Part shown: positions 283 through 6,207 of the stretch, piece after piece
Position numbering within the stretch: the first letter of the stretch is position 1
Layout of the letters: every line of letters starts with the position of its first letter
From: Chloroflexota bacterium
GTDB lineage: Bacteria; Chloroflexota; Anaerolineae; Aggregatilineales; J027
DNA length: 64,000 nucleotides
NCBI GenBank assembly: GCA_013112715.1
Contig: JABFGB010000003.1
Location: 124,001 to 188,000 of the forward strand
Direction: 5' to 3'
The notes under the pieces: generated by a model
The model's database searches: none
The model's input: only the letters and a program-made list of their open reading frames with translations
What the model was told of the DNA's origin: nothing
Program-made: the position numbers and the translations under genes

Positions 283-512
283 GCTGTGAATCCTTTAGTC
301 TGTTTATTAGTGCTGCCCCACCAAACAGACACTGTCTTACCTGTTATTGTAGTCGAATATGGCGAGAGGTAAAGTGAACCCTACTCCCTATCTTATCAAC
401 CTCTAAATATAGCGTAAGACTGTTGCGCCGTTAGGATGGGGTTGTTACAAGTCCGCAACACCTTGTTACGATTCCGAAAAAGCGCAGTGTGGGGCGATAC
501 ACGGGTGAAGGC

Positions 513-518
513 TATAAT
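513..518 (+). promoter_or_regulatory. Possible -10 box for the SDR gene
   Basis: A perfect TATAAT lies 37 bases before the chosen SDR start in the 272-base divergent gap (283-554). I see no good -35 box at 16-18 bases, so this is a weak call. Nothing else is recognisable in the gap. Confidence 0.3.
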
Positions 519-554
519 AAAATCCTATCCATCTCAGATTCGGGAGCGAAAACT

Positions 555-1346
555 ATGGATTTAGGACTGGCTGGAAAAAAAGTGTTTGTAGCTGCAAGTC
601 GCAGTGGACTAGGGGCCGCTACTGCGCGACGCTTTAGCCTTGAAGGGGCATCGGTTGCTATTAATGGCCGCAACCTTGAAACGCTGACGGAAACGGCGCA
701 GATGATTGAGCGCGAATCCGGGCACACTGTTTGGCCGATTGATGGGGATATTCACCATGAAGTTGGGGCCAAGCACGTGATTGAGGCGGCCATTCAAAAA
801 TTGGGTGGGCTGGATGTTTTGGTGACAAACGCAGGAGGGCCGCCCCCCGGCAATTTTGAAAAATTCCAGATGAGTGATTGGGAAAGTGCCTATCGTTCGT
901 TGATGGCTGCTCCCATACAGATGATCCAGACGGCTTTGACCGCCCTACGCCAATCGGCAAGCCCAGCGATTTTGCTGATTACTTCCCTGACGACCAAGCA
1001 GGCGGGGGATAACTTGATTTTGTCGAACGTGATGCGGGCAGGGTTGGCAGGGTTGGTCAAATCGCTGGCGAACGAGCTAGGGCCAAGCGGGATTCGTATC
1101 AATGCCATCTTGCCGGGATGGACAGAGACGGAACGGGTGACGCAGATTTTGTCGGTGGTGGCTTCATCCAGCGGGTCAACAATGGACGAAGAACGGGTCA
1201 AACGCCAAGTCAGTATACCGTTGCGGCGGATGGGCCGACCCGAGGAGTTTGGCAATGTGGCGACATTCATCTGTTCCCCAGCGGCGGGTTTTATTCATGG
1301 GGCGCTGATTCCGGTGGATGGTGGTGAAATTCGGGCAACGATGTAG
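555..1346 (+). CDS. Atypical short-chain dehydrogenase/reductase (BKR-like)
   Basis: 263-residue Rossmann-fold protein of the SDR superfamily, resembling 3-oxoacyl-ACP reductases. The dinucleotide loop reads AASRSGLG, lacking the first Gly of the usual TGxxxGxG, and NAGG follows at about residue 92. The catalytic YxxxK is replaced by SNVMR just before AGLAGLVKSLANELG, so both Tyr and Lys are missing. This matches a recognised SDR-like subgroup with imperfect cofactor and tetrad motifs, so activity should not be assumed. I chose ATG 555 because GGGAG lies 8 bases upstream; a longer frame begins at 489. It faces the cytochrome gene tail to tail. Confidence 0.85.
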   Translation: MDLGLAGKKVFVAASRSGLGAATARRFSLEGASVAINGRNLETLTETAQMIERESGHTVWPIDGDIHHEVGAKHVIEAAIQKLGGLDVLVTNAGGPPPGNFEKFQMSDWESAYRSLMAAPIQMIQTALTALRQSASPAILLITSLTTKQAGDNLILSNVMRAGLAGLVKSLANELGPSGIRINAILPGWTETERVTQILSVVASSSGSTMDEERVKRQVSIPLRRMGRPEEFGNVATFICSPAAGFIHGALIPVDGGEIRATM

Positions 1347-1976: not shown

Positions 1977-4058
1977 GTGTCCCATATATTTGTCAGTTAT
2001 TCACGCCGAAATCTTACGTTTGTAACGCAGTTGGTGAAGGACTTGCAGCAGGCAGGTTTATCTGTCTGGTTTGACCAAATCAGCATTCAACCGGGTGATA
2101 TTTGGGAAGCGGCTATTGAGAAGGGCCTCAAAGAAGCGATTGCGGTAATTGTAGTTATATCACCGGACTCAATGGCGTCAGAGTATGTGCGGAAGGAAGT
2201 CAATTTTGCACAGGAGTCTGACCAACTAATTCTGCCCGTTTTGTATCAGCCCGCCCAACTGTTTCTCAATTTGCAGACGATCCAATGGGTGGATTTGAGC
2301 AGCGAGGCGGTGTATCCAGCCAATCTACAAAAACTGATTGCGGTGTTGAATCGGGAGCCGGGTTTATCTGGCAATTCAACGACTCCGCCGGAGGAAGCTA
2401 CGGCGGTAGGTGATACGCGAAAACTGAGTCTGGCCCTGTTACAGCATTACCTCCATATTGTTACCCTGATTGCTGAACAGACTGCTGGACATCTGGGGTG
2501 GCGGCGATTGGCAGGGAGTATCAGCACTGCCAGCCAGATCAATCCGGGAGCACAAGCATTGGCTCTCACTCGCCTCAATCCACCAACCTTGAGCCGCCTT
2601 GCTGCTTTGCTGGCTACTAGTCCCTCCGCACAAATTCTGCACCTGATTTGCCGTATCGAGAATGACCTATTTTTCGTGGAGGATGAACAAGGGCGGGATA
2701 TTGAACTCTCAATCGAGGATTTAGCGCGTATCTTGCAACGTAGCCCCGTAAAAGTGCTGGTCATACAAGGGCTAATCTCGACAGTGGGGATTCAGAAATT
2801 ATTGGAACAATCCTCGTTGCAAGCCGTCCTAACCATAGGGGCATCGGAGGTCGCACAGCAGTTGTTTGCTGAACATTTTTATGCGACCCTTGCCATCGGC
2901 AAGACGGTGCAAGAAGCATATCAAACCGCTTTGAATCGCTTTGGGATTGACGATACCCACGATTTTCAACTGGTCGCCAAACATGATGCAGTGTTGTTGG
3001 ACTATCCACCTATCGAAAAGCAGGCCGTGCAGCCAATTATTGACCCCGGTTTGCCACCGATGCGAAATGTGCCGATCAATCCTGATTTTGTAGGGCAGGG
3101 ACAGCCGCTTTTGGAGCTTGGTGAAAAACTCAATAGCAGCCGACAGCTTATGATTTATGGCCTGAGCGGGATAGGCAAAAGTTGGCTGGCAAGTGAGTTT
3201 ATCTCCCGCTATGGTTGGCGCTTTTCAGATGGCATTGTCTGGGTACAAGTGTCGGAACAGACCCGCGCAGAGGACATTTTTAACCAATTGCGGTTGCTAT
3301 TGGAGTTGCCGCTGAGTACCCCCTTAGTGGAATTAGAAAATATCCTGCGTCAACGGCGTGTGCTGATGGTACTTGACCAAGCCAATGACTGGGGGAATGT
3401 GGCAGAATTAAGTGAACTCGCCCAATTTATTAGCCGACTGGACCCGATGGGTGGGACACGGGTGATGTTGACGTCGTGGGAGAGCATCTTAGGTTTGTCG
3501 GATATGAGCGGGGCACGTGATCTGACATTGGTCGAAATGCAGCCTGCCGATGCGGAAACATTGATCCAAAAGCTGATTGTTGACCATGACCTAACTGCTG
3601 AGTTTTCAGATGCTACGGTGCTGCGTCAATTTGTCGAAAAAACGGCCTTTACCCCTTGGCTAATTAAAGAGGCCCTACGCTTGGCGCAGCTGGACGGGCT
3701 AGAAGCAGCATTGGAAGATTTGGAGACCCTTACTGCGGATACCACGCGCTTATTTGAGCGTCATGTTGGGGTGCAATATCAGAAATTATCTGCTCCGACT
3801 CAAGCCTTTTTGTGCCGGCTACAAGGGCTGTCCGATGGGTTTGACCGCCGACTGGTACAGGCGATTGATTCCCAAAGCCGCGAACATTTGCGACAATTAA
3901 TCCAGCGTCAGTTATTGCGCCGTGAGGATCGGTTATATACCATCCCGCCAACGGTGCGGCTCTATCTGCGGCAACGGTATCCGTTAAGTGAAGCCGAGCA
4001 AGACACGATTGACCAACAAGTTATCCGCTATTGGGTGCAGGCTGGGGGAGCAAAATAG
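1977..4058 (+). CDS. TIR / degenerate CHAT / NB-ARC STAND protein
   Basis: About 693 residues. A TIR domain opens the protein (residues 1-115, starting SHIFVSYSRR; candidate NADase Glu in the YVRKEV helix). Residues about 150-345 resemble a CHAT peptidase domain, but the His is replaced (HLICRIEN) and the catalytic Cys position reads QG (VLVIQGLIS), so it is probably inactive. An NB-ARC NTPase follows, with Walker A GLSGIGKS at about 395-402, Walker B VLMVLDQ at about 462-468 and a sensor-like RVMLTSWE, then a winged-helix-type end. There are no C-terminal sensor repeats; TPRs are encoded by the next gene 2 bases downstream. I prefer GTG 1977 because TIR proteins typically begin this way and AAGGG lies upstream; TTG 1908 is the longest alternative. 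A role in conflict-triggered NAD+ depletion or signalling is inferred. Confidence 0.85.
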   Translation: MSHIFVSYSRRNLTFVTQLVKDLQQAGLSVWFDQISIQPGDIWEAAIEKGLKEAIAVIVVISPDSMASEYVRKEVNFAQESDQLILPVLYQPAQLFLNLQTIQWVDLSSEAVYPANLQKLIAVLNREPGLSGNSTTPPEEATAVGDTRKLSLALLQHYLHIVTLIAEQTAGHLGWRRLAGSISTASQINPGAQALALTRLNPPTLSRLAALLATSPSAQILHLICRIENDLFFVEDEQGRDIELSIEDLARILQRSPVKVLVIQGLISTVGIQKLLEQSSLQAVLTIGASEVAQQLFAEHFYATLAIGKTVQEAYQTALNRFGIDDTHDFQLVAKHDAVLLDYPPIEKQAVQPIIDPGLPPMRNVPINPDFVGQGQPLLELGEKLNSSRQLMIYGLSGIGKSWLASEFISRYGWRFSDGIVWVQVSEQTRAEDIFNQLRLLLELPLSTPLVELENILRQRRVLMVLDQANDWGNVAELSELAQFISRLDPMGGTRVMLTSWESILGLSDMSGARDLTLVEMQPADAETLIQKLIVDHDLTAEFSDATVLRQFVEKTAFTPWLIKEALRLAQLDGLEAALEDLETLTADTTRLFERHVGVQYQKLSAPTQAFLCRLQGLSDGFDRRLVQAIDSQSREHLRQLIQRQLLRREDRLYTIPPTVRLYLRQRYPLSEAEQDTIDQQVIRYWVQAGGAK

Positions 4059-4060
4059 GC

Positions 4061-5350
4061 ATGGGTACGACAATTAATCCATTGGCACTAACACGCGAAC
4101 AACAGGCGGCGCTCAATAATCTACGCGGTGTTTTGGGTCGCCAACTACGGCCTGCCAGCAAGACTGACCCGACCCTATTGGCAGAGTTGATTCTGCAAAA
4201 CGCTCTGCTGATGCGCGAAAACGGCCTCGCCAGCGAGTTATTAGATTATCTTCAGCGGGTGCGCGAAAAGCTGGATGGCGAAAATCCTCTGTATGCCCGC
4301 TTGGGTATCGAGATCGCCGTGACGTTAGATGCCATTGATGGACGGCAGCAGGAGGCGGGGGAGATTTTCCAAACCACATTGGCTTGGTATCGGGCGCACC
4401 CGATACCATTGGCAGAGGGGCAGGCTCGCATCGCCTATGGCCGTTTTTTGATTCATCGCAGCCAACTCCAAGAGGCAATGGTGCAGTATCAGCAGGCACT
4501 TGAATTATTGAAGGATCATCCTGTAGAAGCCGCTATCGCTCAAGGCGAAATGGGTAGGGTGTTAGTAGGGCAGGGTAAATTCAGTGAGGCAGTCAGTCGT
4601 TTTGAGAAAGCCTATGCACTATCCAGTGGAGATGGTAAAGCAGGAGTACGCCTAGTGAATGATTTTGCAGCGGCACTCATTGAGTTGGGGGAGATGGAGC
4701 GGGCCGAAAGATTACTCATTGAAGGTGTAGAAACCGCCACTCAGCAGGGGTTATGGTTAGTGCGAGCCAATCTACGCCGCCAAATGGCTTATATTTATCA
4801 CCTACGGGCAGAGAAATCTCATGATGCGGTATCGGCACAGCCATATCTGGATGAGGCTGAACGTCTGCTCCACCAAACGATAGCCGAAATGCTGCCACTG
4901 CAAAACACACTGGATTTGGCGGTGGTGTATCATGATTTGGCTCGGATCGAGACCCAACAACGCCAATTCTCTGAAGCTGAAGCCCACCTGCGCTTGAGTC
5001 TCGAATTGTTCCAGCGATTGGGCAATTTGCGGAATGAGGCGGTGGCGGAAATAACACTGGGCACACTGGTGGTGTTAAAAAATGGGGATATTGCGGCGGG
5101 GAATGAGCATCTCCATCGCTCACTCCAATTGGCAGACAAGGTGGGGGATGGGTTTACCCTGCGCCAAGCGGCTGAGACCTTGACCCGCCTGCATCAGCTT
5201 CAGGCGAATTGGGCCAAAACACAACCCCGCGAAATTCGTATACAGGTTATTGACCAGCTTTCCTTTAGTCGAGCAAAACTGGTTGACTATGGATTGCCAG
5301 AGGCCGCCCAAGTGATGGCAAGTATGATGACGGAACTTGAGGCGTTATAG
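4061..5350 (+). CDS. TPR-repeat protein, partner of the TIR/NB-ARC gene
   Basis: 429 residues, almost wholly helical, with tetratricopeptide-type repeats visible from about residue 100 (ARIAYGRFLIHRSQLQEAM, GEMGRVLVGQGKFSEAVS, YHDLARIETQQRQFSEAEAH). No enzymatic motif is seen. ATG 4061 is 2 bases after the upstream stop, with GGGGGAG about 12 bases ahead, so the pair is almost certainly co-transcribed. In many STAND proteins TPRs form the C-terminal sensor; here they seem detached into their own protein. A sensor or adaptor role is inferred. Confidence 0.85.
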   Translation: MGTTINPLALTREQQAALNNLRGVLGRQLRPASKTDPTLLAELILQNALLMRENGLASELLDYLQRVREKLDGENPLYARLGIEIAVTLDAIDGRQQEAGEIFQTTLAWYRAHPIPLAEGQARIAYGRFLIHRSQLQEAMVQYQQALELLKDHPVEAAIAQGEMGRVLVGQGKFSEAVSRFEKAYALSSGDGKAGVRLVNDFAAALIELGEMERAERLLIEGVETATQQGLWLVRANLRRQMAYIYHLRAEKSHDAVSAQPYLDEAERLLHQTIAEMLPLQNTLDLAVVYHDLARIETQQRQFSEAEAHLRLSLELFQRLGNLRNEAVAEITLGTLVVLKNGDIAAGNEHLHRSLQLADKVGDGFTLRQAAETLTRLHQLQANWAKTQPREIRIQVIDQLSFSRAKLVDYGLPEAAQVMASMMTELEAL

Positions 5351-5367
5351 TTGGTAAAGCGAGAACA

Positions 5368-6207
5368 ATGACGACTGATTTGGATTTTCCATTTGACAAT
5401 GAGACAGTGTATTGCGAGAACCATCCTGATCGGGCGGCGATAGAACACTGCGAAGTCTGCCAAAAAGCCCTGTGTGGCTACTGCCTCTATTACACGGTAG
5501 ATGGACAGCGGCTTTGTAAAGAACATGCCATGCAAGCCGAGGCCCAAGGGGTGCAGGTCATTTCGCCTGCCATCTATGCCGCAGGCATTATTCCGGCGCA
5601 GGCCCGTGCTACCGAATCGGCAGAAAAGGTCGAGGAAGGGGTGCGTAAGGCAAAAGGGGCGATTGCTGGCAAAAAGGTGATGTATCAGGCCAATAATAAC
5701 GATGTGATGGCGTTCGTTGCCTTACTGGTTTCAGTCATCACTGTGCCAAGCCTTTGCTGCATGGGCGGGGCGTGTTTGCCATTGGTCGGGTTTTTGCTGT
5801 CCGTGTTAGCACTGGTTAATGCCAAAGATGCGGTAGATACTAAACGTACCCGACAGCAGGCGTTTATCGGGTTAGGCGTATCTGGGGTGTTTGGGTTAGG
5901 CATTGCGGCCTGTATTGCGTTTTATGCCGTAGCGATGGCAGGGGCTTTTCAGTCGAACTCGTCGTTCAACTATTACTTCCCGACCTCCAACCCGACCTAC
6001 TATTATTATCTGACACCAAGCGTTCAACCCATTGCAACCTCAACGCCGCGCCAAACGGCTACACCATCACCGAGCGCGACTTCACGGGTGCAAACGAATC
6101 CCACCAAAGCGGCATCCCCCCAACCTAAACTCGGTGATGGGGAGGTCGAATGGTGGGAGGCTCTTAGCCAAATATTCGATAGGTCAGCACCAGTGGGATT
6201 TGAGTGA
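5368..6207 (+). CDS. B-box zinc-finger membrane protein (DUF4190-like)
   Basis: 279 residues. The N-terminus has a B-box-like zinc site (CENHPDRAAIEHCEVCQKALC, then C and CKEH; residues about 12-50). A linker follows, then two hydrophobic hairpins (about 112-152 and 167-195) resembling DUF4190-type membrane domains, and a Ser/Thr/Pro-rich tail probably outside the membrane. It starts 17 bases after the TPR gene and its 3' end overlaps the convergent gene by 44 bases. B-box fingers mediate protein contacts, so it could be the membrane anchor of the upstream module; that link rests on position alone. DUF4190-like proteins are common in Chloroflexota and may be unrelated. Confidence 0.75.
   Translation: MTTDLDFPFDNETVYCENHPDRAAIEHCEVCQKALCGYCLYYTVDGQRLCKEHAMQAEAQGVQVISPAIYAAGIIPAQARATESAEKVEEGVRKAKGAIAGKKVMYQANNNDVMAFVALLVSVITVPSLCCMGGACLPLVGFLLSVLALVNAKDAVDTKRTRQQAFIGLGVSGVFGLGIAACIAFYAVAMAGAFQSNSSFNYYFPTSNPTYYYYLTPSVQPIATSTPRQTATPSPSATSRVQTNPTKAASPQPKLGDGEVEWWEALSQIFDRSAPVGFE

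Follow-up and report, generated by a model that had tools for sequence, protein, structure and literature searches.

Introduction

The AP-ATPases of the STAND family that use a TPR sensor, represented by PH0952, MalT and AfsR and, by fold, by Apaf-1 and the plant NLRs, share an NB-ARC domain with intact Walker motifs, a winged helix and a TPR superhelix. In STAND proteins the sensor repeats usually form the C-terminal part of the same chain, although this is not strictly defining.

Variants on this plan have been reported. Kaur et al. (2020; PMC7159879) described a TIR-AP-ATPase that is encoded apart from, and next to, partners with TPR, found inactive caspase-like effectors to be frequent in the wider VMAP class, and listed Chloroflexi among the hosts. 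Taken singly, then, the STAND-TPR chain, the TIR-AP-ATPase, the inactive caspase-like domain and the TPR partner in a separate gene are all known (PMC7159879). A second relevant precedent is a locus and not a protein: in Actinobacteria, FhaA, FhaB, RodA and PbpA are neighbors in the fhaA-fhaB-pstP-rodA-pbpA-pknA-pknB locus, which functions in division and in the synthesis of the cell wall (PMC6554272).

Herein we analyze three consecutive genes, termed A, B and C, from a Chloroflexota bacterium (GCA_013112715.1, contig JABFGB010000003.1); the window is the whole stretch of DNA that was analyzed, 64,000 nucleotides in length. An initial sequence-only reading had proposed that they form a split STAND module and the strongest candidate for an undescribed system in the window. 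The genes resemble the AP-ATPases described above, and differ from them in that the TPR of the window's family is a separate gene and that a TIR and a dead CHAT domain are stacked at the N-terminus of the ATPase.

Results

Domain Anatomy of Gene A

The features of the locus, all on the forward (+) strand, are as follows.

489..1346, +, short-chain dehydrogenase (SDR), the conserved upstream neighbor in both families
1977..4058, +, gene A, TIR - pseudo-CHAT - NB-ARC, 693 aa, GTG start (Pfam, AlphaFold model, orthologues in eight family genomes)
1977..2342, +, TIR domain, gene A residues 1-122 (Pfam, AbTir alignment, fold match)
2427..2981, +, degenerate CHAT, gene A residues 151-335 (homologue alignment, fold match)
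3081..4055, +, NB-ARC plus winged-helix/C-lobe, gene A residues 369-693 (Pfam, model, fold match)
4061..5350, +, gene B, separate TPR protein, 429 aa (Pfam; collinear with residues ~603-1030 of one-chain relatives)
5368..6207, +, gene C, B-box-like zinc finger, three predicted membrane segments and a Pro/Thr/Ser-rich tail, 279 aa
5413..5526, +, gene C residues 16-53, zinc ligand motif C-x2-H-x8-C-x2-C-x4-C-x2-C-x10-C-x2-H, invariant in 17 sequences

Five species of the window's genus have conserved copies of genes A, B and C, which are therefore real genes. An alternative in-frame start of gene A is the TTG at 1908. A small cytochrome c gene (1404-1925, - strand) lies between the SDR gene and gene A in the window's genus, divergent from the latter, and its start overlaps the region of this possible TTG start.

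The Pfam scan of gene A gave TIR_2 at residues 4-121 (E 3e-27), NB-ARC at residues 388-555 (E 4e-8, above the cut-off) and nSTAND6 (E 4e-9). Both Walker motifs are intact (Walker A, GLSGIGKS, residues 395-402, 3159-3182; Walker B, VLMVLD, residues 462-467, 3360-3377), and in the AlphaFold model, which was built from 24 relatives (pLDDT 83), residues 363-690 have the fold of MalT (Z 15.9) and also match PH0952, Apaf-1 and NRC2. Gene A thus encodes an NB-ARC-type P-loop NTPase with Walker A, Walker B and a winged helix. The model ends in a helix (residues 672-691) and, as the sequence-only reading had it, has no sensor repeats; those that fused relatives carry in the same chain are found here in gene B. 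Gene A nevertheless belongs with the STAND proteins, since the family is defined by its NTPase.

Residues 1-127 match SARM1 (Z 17.6) and AbTir (Z 16.2), which establishes the TIR fold. The residues that have been tested in AbTir include E208, D167 and S140, and the Trp of the WxxxE motif is essential in AbTir and not in TcpC (PMC11374754). By alignment, Glu74 (2196-2198) is the equivalent of AbTir E208 and the catalytic Glu, while Asp33 aligns with D167 and Ser7 with S140, both being kept. An alternative placement of the catalytic Glu, in the WE of GDIWEAA, was rejected because the AbTir alignment puts it at E74. The WxxxE motif reads YVRKE, in which Tyr70 replaces Trp204 and Glu74 is present, and the Trp is replaced throughout. 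In the sister genus g4 (G007 and G009) an Asp stands in place of the Glu, and the domain of G007 is further degraded. Given the Tyr for Trp and the Asp for Glu in the sister genus, NADase activity is uncertain or limited to certain lineages; in the window's genus the residues retained make it plausible, and in g4 it is doubtful. As for the refuting condition set by the sequence-only reading, a TIR that lacks NAD-binding residues, the window's TIR keeps the catalytic Glu and that of g4 has Asp there. The two loci that have lost the TIR Glu (L040 in G009 and L041 in G007) are also the two members of the window's family that have A/B without gene C, a hint of correlated loss. The window's genome (G000) is TIR-rich, with TIR domains encoded at 18 places, of which the present locus is the one that was compared for synteny.

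The Pseudo-CHAT Domain Is Retained without Its Dyad

Pfam gave no CHAT match for gene A itself at E ≤ 1. The fold is recognizable nonetheless, as residues 157-349 align to the CHAT protein 8tl0 (Z 17.2, 180 residues, 3.1 Å) and the region aligns to outgroups that Pfam does recognize, and a misreading of the domain is ruled out by these homologues and by the fold. The position of the catalytic His is occupied by R226 (2652-2654) and that of the Cys by L266 (2772-2774), so that the degenerate CHAT first noticed in the letters is, on sequence grounds, a pseudo-CHAT and not a peptidase.

The dyad is complete in none of the eight members of the window's family, seven having neither residue and one the His only. 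Among 16 sister-family members, seven have both, six the Cys only, two the His only and one neither, whereas His and Cys are both present in all seven outgroup sequences, with Pfam CHAT matches of 5e-13 to 4e-21 in the four that were scanned. Judged by these residues, the window's family has a dead CHAT and the sister family one that is dying.

Within the window's genus dN/dS is 0.02-0.07 for TIR, 0.08-0.13 for NB-ARC, 0.07-0.15 for TPR (gene B) and 0.12-0.24 for pseudo-CHAT. The dead CHAT and the TPR are hence still under purifying selection and the TIR is the most constrained part. Because selection acts on a pseudo-CHAT that has no dyad, the domain appears to be kept for its structure. Of the two roles that had been suggested for it, that of a non-catalytic scaffold agrees with retention in the absence of catalysis, and nothing favors that of a decoy.

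The TPR Sensor Has Been Separated from a Single Chain

Gene B follows gene A after 2 bases (TAG-GC-ATG) and precedes gene C by 17 bases, all on one strand, and it matches TPR_12 (E 3e-15), in agreement with the gene order and TPR content originally read from the sequence. The members found in f1, the family of the window, all carry A and B as two separate, adjacent genes. The complete genes of the sister family (f4) encode a single chain of ~1014-1056 aa (1143 in L043, which has a long upstream start), usually followed by gene C. The first ~600 residues of this chain match A from residue ~151, without the TIR, and the remainder matches B; across 16 sister-family loci, gene A residues ~151-688 and gene B residues ~10-429 are successive halves of one chain. 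A TPR is adjacent or fused at every A locus of the two families in which the downstream end is covered.

A model of a fused relative (pLDDT 86, pTM 0.83) places the A/B break point in a linker with low pLDDT at residues 602-604. Its residues 265-975 align with the STAND-TPR protein PH0952 (6mfv) over 609 residues (Z 23.1), which is most of that protein, and the alignment with MalT scores Z 25.1. In other orders the homologues, wherever complete, are single CHAT-NB-ARC-TPR chains, and those at L148-L154 have the same CHAT, NB-ARC and TPR in succession, differing from gene A in their canonical His/Cys dyad and the lack of a TIR. Because the sister family and the distant outgroups are fused, and the outgroups have the canonical dyad, sequence comparison indicates descent from a single-chain CHAT-NB-ARC-TPR ancestor, with gain of the TIR, loss of the CHAT dyad and detachment of the TPR in the window's lineage. 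Fusion and an active CHAT would be ancestral by parsimony, on a tree drawn with midpoint rooting. The notion that the sensor had been split off, first drawn from the letters, is thereby borne out.

A frameshift or sequencing error at the junction was considered and rejected, as A and B are separate in all eight genomes and their junctions differ. These read TAG-GC-ATG, TAG-TT-ATG, TAATG or TAAAATG, and the relative frame is not always the same; this variation makes a programmed frameshift unlikely as well.

Gene C Encodes a Conserved, Putative Membrane Partner

The third gene had been read as a B-box/DUF4190 protein. Both Pfam matches fall under their cut-offs (zf-B_box E 4e-4, 20.9 bits against 24.1; DUF4190 E 0.16), yet all 17 homologues compared share the eight Cys/His ligands, which have B-box-2-like spacing but end in a C-x2-H pair and are here termed B-box-like. 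The hydrophobic segments are conserved, three of them in nearly all homologues. The predicted topology would place the tail on the side of the membrane opposite the zinc finger.

Genes A and C co-occur among 101 genomes (both in 22, A only in three, C only in two, neither in 74; Fisher p 6e-17, a value that overstates independence because relatives share ancestry), and where either gene is present C accompanies A in 22 of 27 genomes. The exceptions are G007, G009 and G073, with A/B and no C, and G056 and G008, with C and no A/B. At L085 (G056, family f8), gene C lies inside an FhaA-FhaB-MTAP-RodA-PbpA cluster with a PMT-like/mannosyltransferase-like membrane glycosyltransferase in the place of A. 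At L084 (G008, f1) it comes immediately after a GAF/PAS histidine kinase; the contig is short, and the genome, in which A/B was not found, is 69% complete. A class-wide search with gene C reached B-box/DUF4190 proteins that are more distant; among the loci inspected, no A homologue lay close to them, a weak NB-ARC match in L141 excepted, and at the threshold used gene C was not found in the outgroup genomes that carry CHAT-NB-ARC-TPR (L148-L154).

The Module Resides in a Cell-Wall Cluster and Is Vertically Inherited

A search with gene A among 101 relatives (E ≤ 1e-30) found it in 25 of the 101 genomes. The window's family contributes 8 of its 10 genomes and the sister family 17 of its 18, and the gene was found in none of the other listed families of the order. 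The gene tree separates the two families with 100/100 and 99/98 support and follows the taxonomy, as vertical descent predicts. Full-length relatives were absent from the plasmids, phages and viral contigs searched. A mobile origin was rejected, there being no matches in phages, one TIR-only match on a plasmid and one weak NB-ARC match in the viral contigs. Island or mobile location and patchy distribution, which are usual and not strictly defining traits of defense systems, are therefore not seen here. Five sister-family loci of the genus g8 (L050, L051, L054, L055 and L056) have a Walker A that ends in GVGKR and not GKS/T, and a Walker B in which Asp is changed to Glu or Gln; their STAND ATPase looks degenerate, and the chain is nonetheless kept.

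In the sister family the order is FhaA-FhaB-SDR-[CHAT-NB-ARC-TPR]-C-MTAP-RodA-PbpA, on one strand and with gaps mostly <300 bases. That of the window's genus is RodA-PbpA-(one further gene)-CpXC-histidine kinase-FhaA-FhaB-...-SDR-A-B-C, and in the loci of the window's family no MTAP was seen next to the module. At least one cluster gene (FhaA, FhaB, SDR, MTAP, RodA or PbpA) adjoins the module in 21 of 25 loci; in G005 the module is apart from the FHA genes. The family f5 has FhaA-FhaB-SDR-MTAP-RodA-PbpA without the module, as do f2 and f3 in near forms. The setting of the sister-family module resembles the actinobacterial locus (PMC6554272) in the adjacency of FhaA, FhaB, RodA and PbpA, and differs from it in that SDR and MTAP replace pstP and the kinases and that a STAND module is inserted. 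No pkn-type kinase or phosphatase was found among the neighbors scanned. A serine/threonine kinase beside the cluster was likewise looked for and not found, the 617-aa protein after PbpA being an Exo_endo_phos protein. The other nearby genes in the window are housekeeping genes (RecJ, Fmt, GNAT and DUF1385).

The sequence-only reading had called for a check of placement in defense islands, and a defense-island system is not supported: the module is near-universal in two families, vertically inherited, absent from the phages and plasmids searched and placed in a cell-wall cluster.

Discussion

Relation to Described Systems

The FxSxx-type VMAP ternary systems (PMC7159879) are similar in having a TIR-AP-ATPase gene apart from its TPR-bearing partner, and inactive caspase-like domains. 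Gene A scores 39.9 bits against FxSxx_TPR, for which the cut-off is 300, and vWA, MoxR and VMAP were not found among the neighbors scanned by Pfam or labeled by homology. In the accessible literature, which leaves most subscription papers outside, we found neither this combination of domains nor the documented output exchange, nor did we find the B-box membrane partner or an FHA-RodA-PbpA locus that contains a STAND module. The claim of an undescribed system holds only in part, as a separate TIR-AP-ATPase next to TPR partners and inactive caspase-like effectors have been described previously (PMC7159879).

A Proposed Mechanism and Its Alternatives

We propose that A, B and C constitute one NLR-like STAND module with its TPR in trans, a membrane partner in C, an envelope trigger and a TIR output, a reading that we regard as almost evenly balanced, leaning slightly to the doubtful side. 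The TPR of gene B would act in trans as a sensor or clamp that keeps the NB-ARC of A at rest with ADP bound, just as the fused TPR would in cis, and the membrane zinc-finger protein C may tether the complex to the cell envelope or feed an envelope signal to it. On triggering, the NB-ARC would exchange its nucleotide and oligomerize, the dead CHAT might be a rigid spacer, and the TIR domains, once clustered, could hydrolyze NAD+ (or signal), leading to cell arrest or death. Faulty growth or division of the envelope would be a likelier trigger than phage in particular, since the module is near-core, vertically inherited and a resident of the FhaA-FhaB-RodA-PbpA locus, although its location in the cell-wall cluster may be passive.

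A rival reading, in line with the defense role considered in the sequence-only reading, is a phage-defense (abortive infection) STAND, in which B senses a phage product, A oligomerizes and the TIR depletes NAD+. The structural resemblance of TIR and NB-ARC to SARM1, SPARTA and the plant TIR-NLRs, the match of PADLOC TIR-effector models to the TIR of gene A, and the prediction that related architectures in multicellular bacteria are antiviral (PMC7159879) all speak for it. We consider it unlikely, as a module that is near-universal in two families and vertically inherited, that has housekeeping neighbors (RecJ, Fmt, GNAT and DUF1385) and lies in a cell-wall cluster, and that has no full-length relative on the plasmids, phages and viral contigs searched, does not behave as phage-defense systems usually do.

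A slightly less probable alternative is that TIR and CHAT are non-enzymatic, protein-interaction domains of a MalT-like switch that regulates envelope growth or gene expression and kills nothing. In its favor, the CHAT dyad is broken in 8 of 8 members of the window's family and in 9 of 16 of the sister family, the TIR Glu is Asp in g4 and the WxxxE Trp is replaced throughout, Walker A and B are degenerate in the sister genus g8, and MalT is among the best fold matches of the fused chain. The TIR is, however, the most constrained part, with Ser7, Asp33 and Glu74 kept in the window's genus, and no DNA-binding domain was found in the Pfam scan of the module. That an old conflict system landed in the cluster by chance and persists as a passenger functionally unconnected with the cell-wall genes is very improbable: the clusters of f2, f3 and f5 that are empty of it and its dissociation from the FHA genes in G005 would fit, but every domain is under strong purifying selection, the placement is on the same strand with gaps mostly <300 bases, and the module has been kept across two families.

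Implications

The proposal of an envelope-triggered module can be put in a more specific form, which we offer tentatively: the three genes could be a core, NLR-like switch for cell death or arrest, one that stands guard over cell-wall growth from within an FHA-RodA-PbpA locus, with its sensor in trans, a membrane zinc-finger partner and an exchanged output, in which a CHAT peptidase has given way to TIR and the dead peptidase is kept as a spacer. The fused chains with an active-looking CHAT, the fused chains with a decaying CHAT, and the split genes with TIR and a dead CHAT form a natural series, along which an NLR-type receptor acquires a different output and its sensor passes to a second gene. 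Should the association with the FHA-RodA-PbpA locus prove functional, it would become possible to test whether some NLR-like switches of bacteria are guards of the cell envelope and not sentinels for phage.
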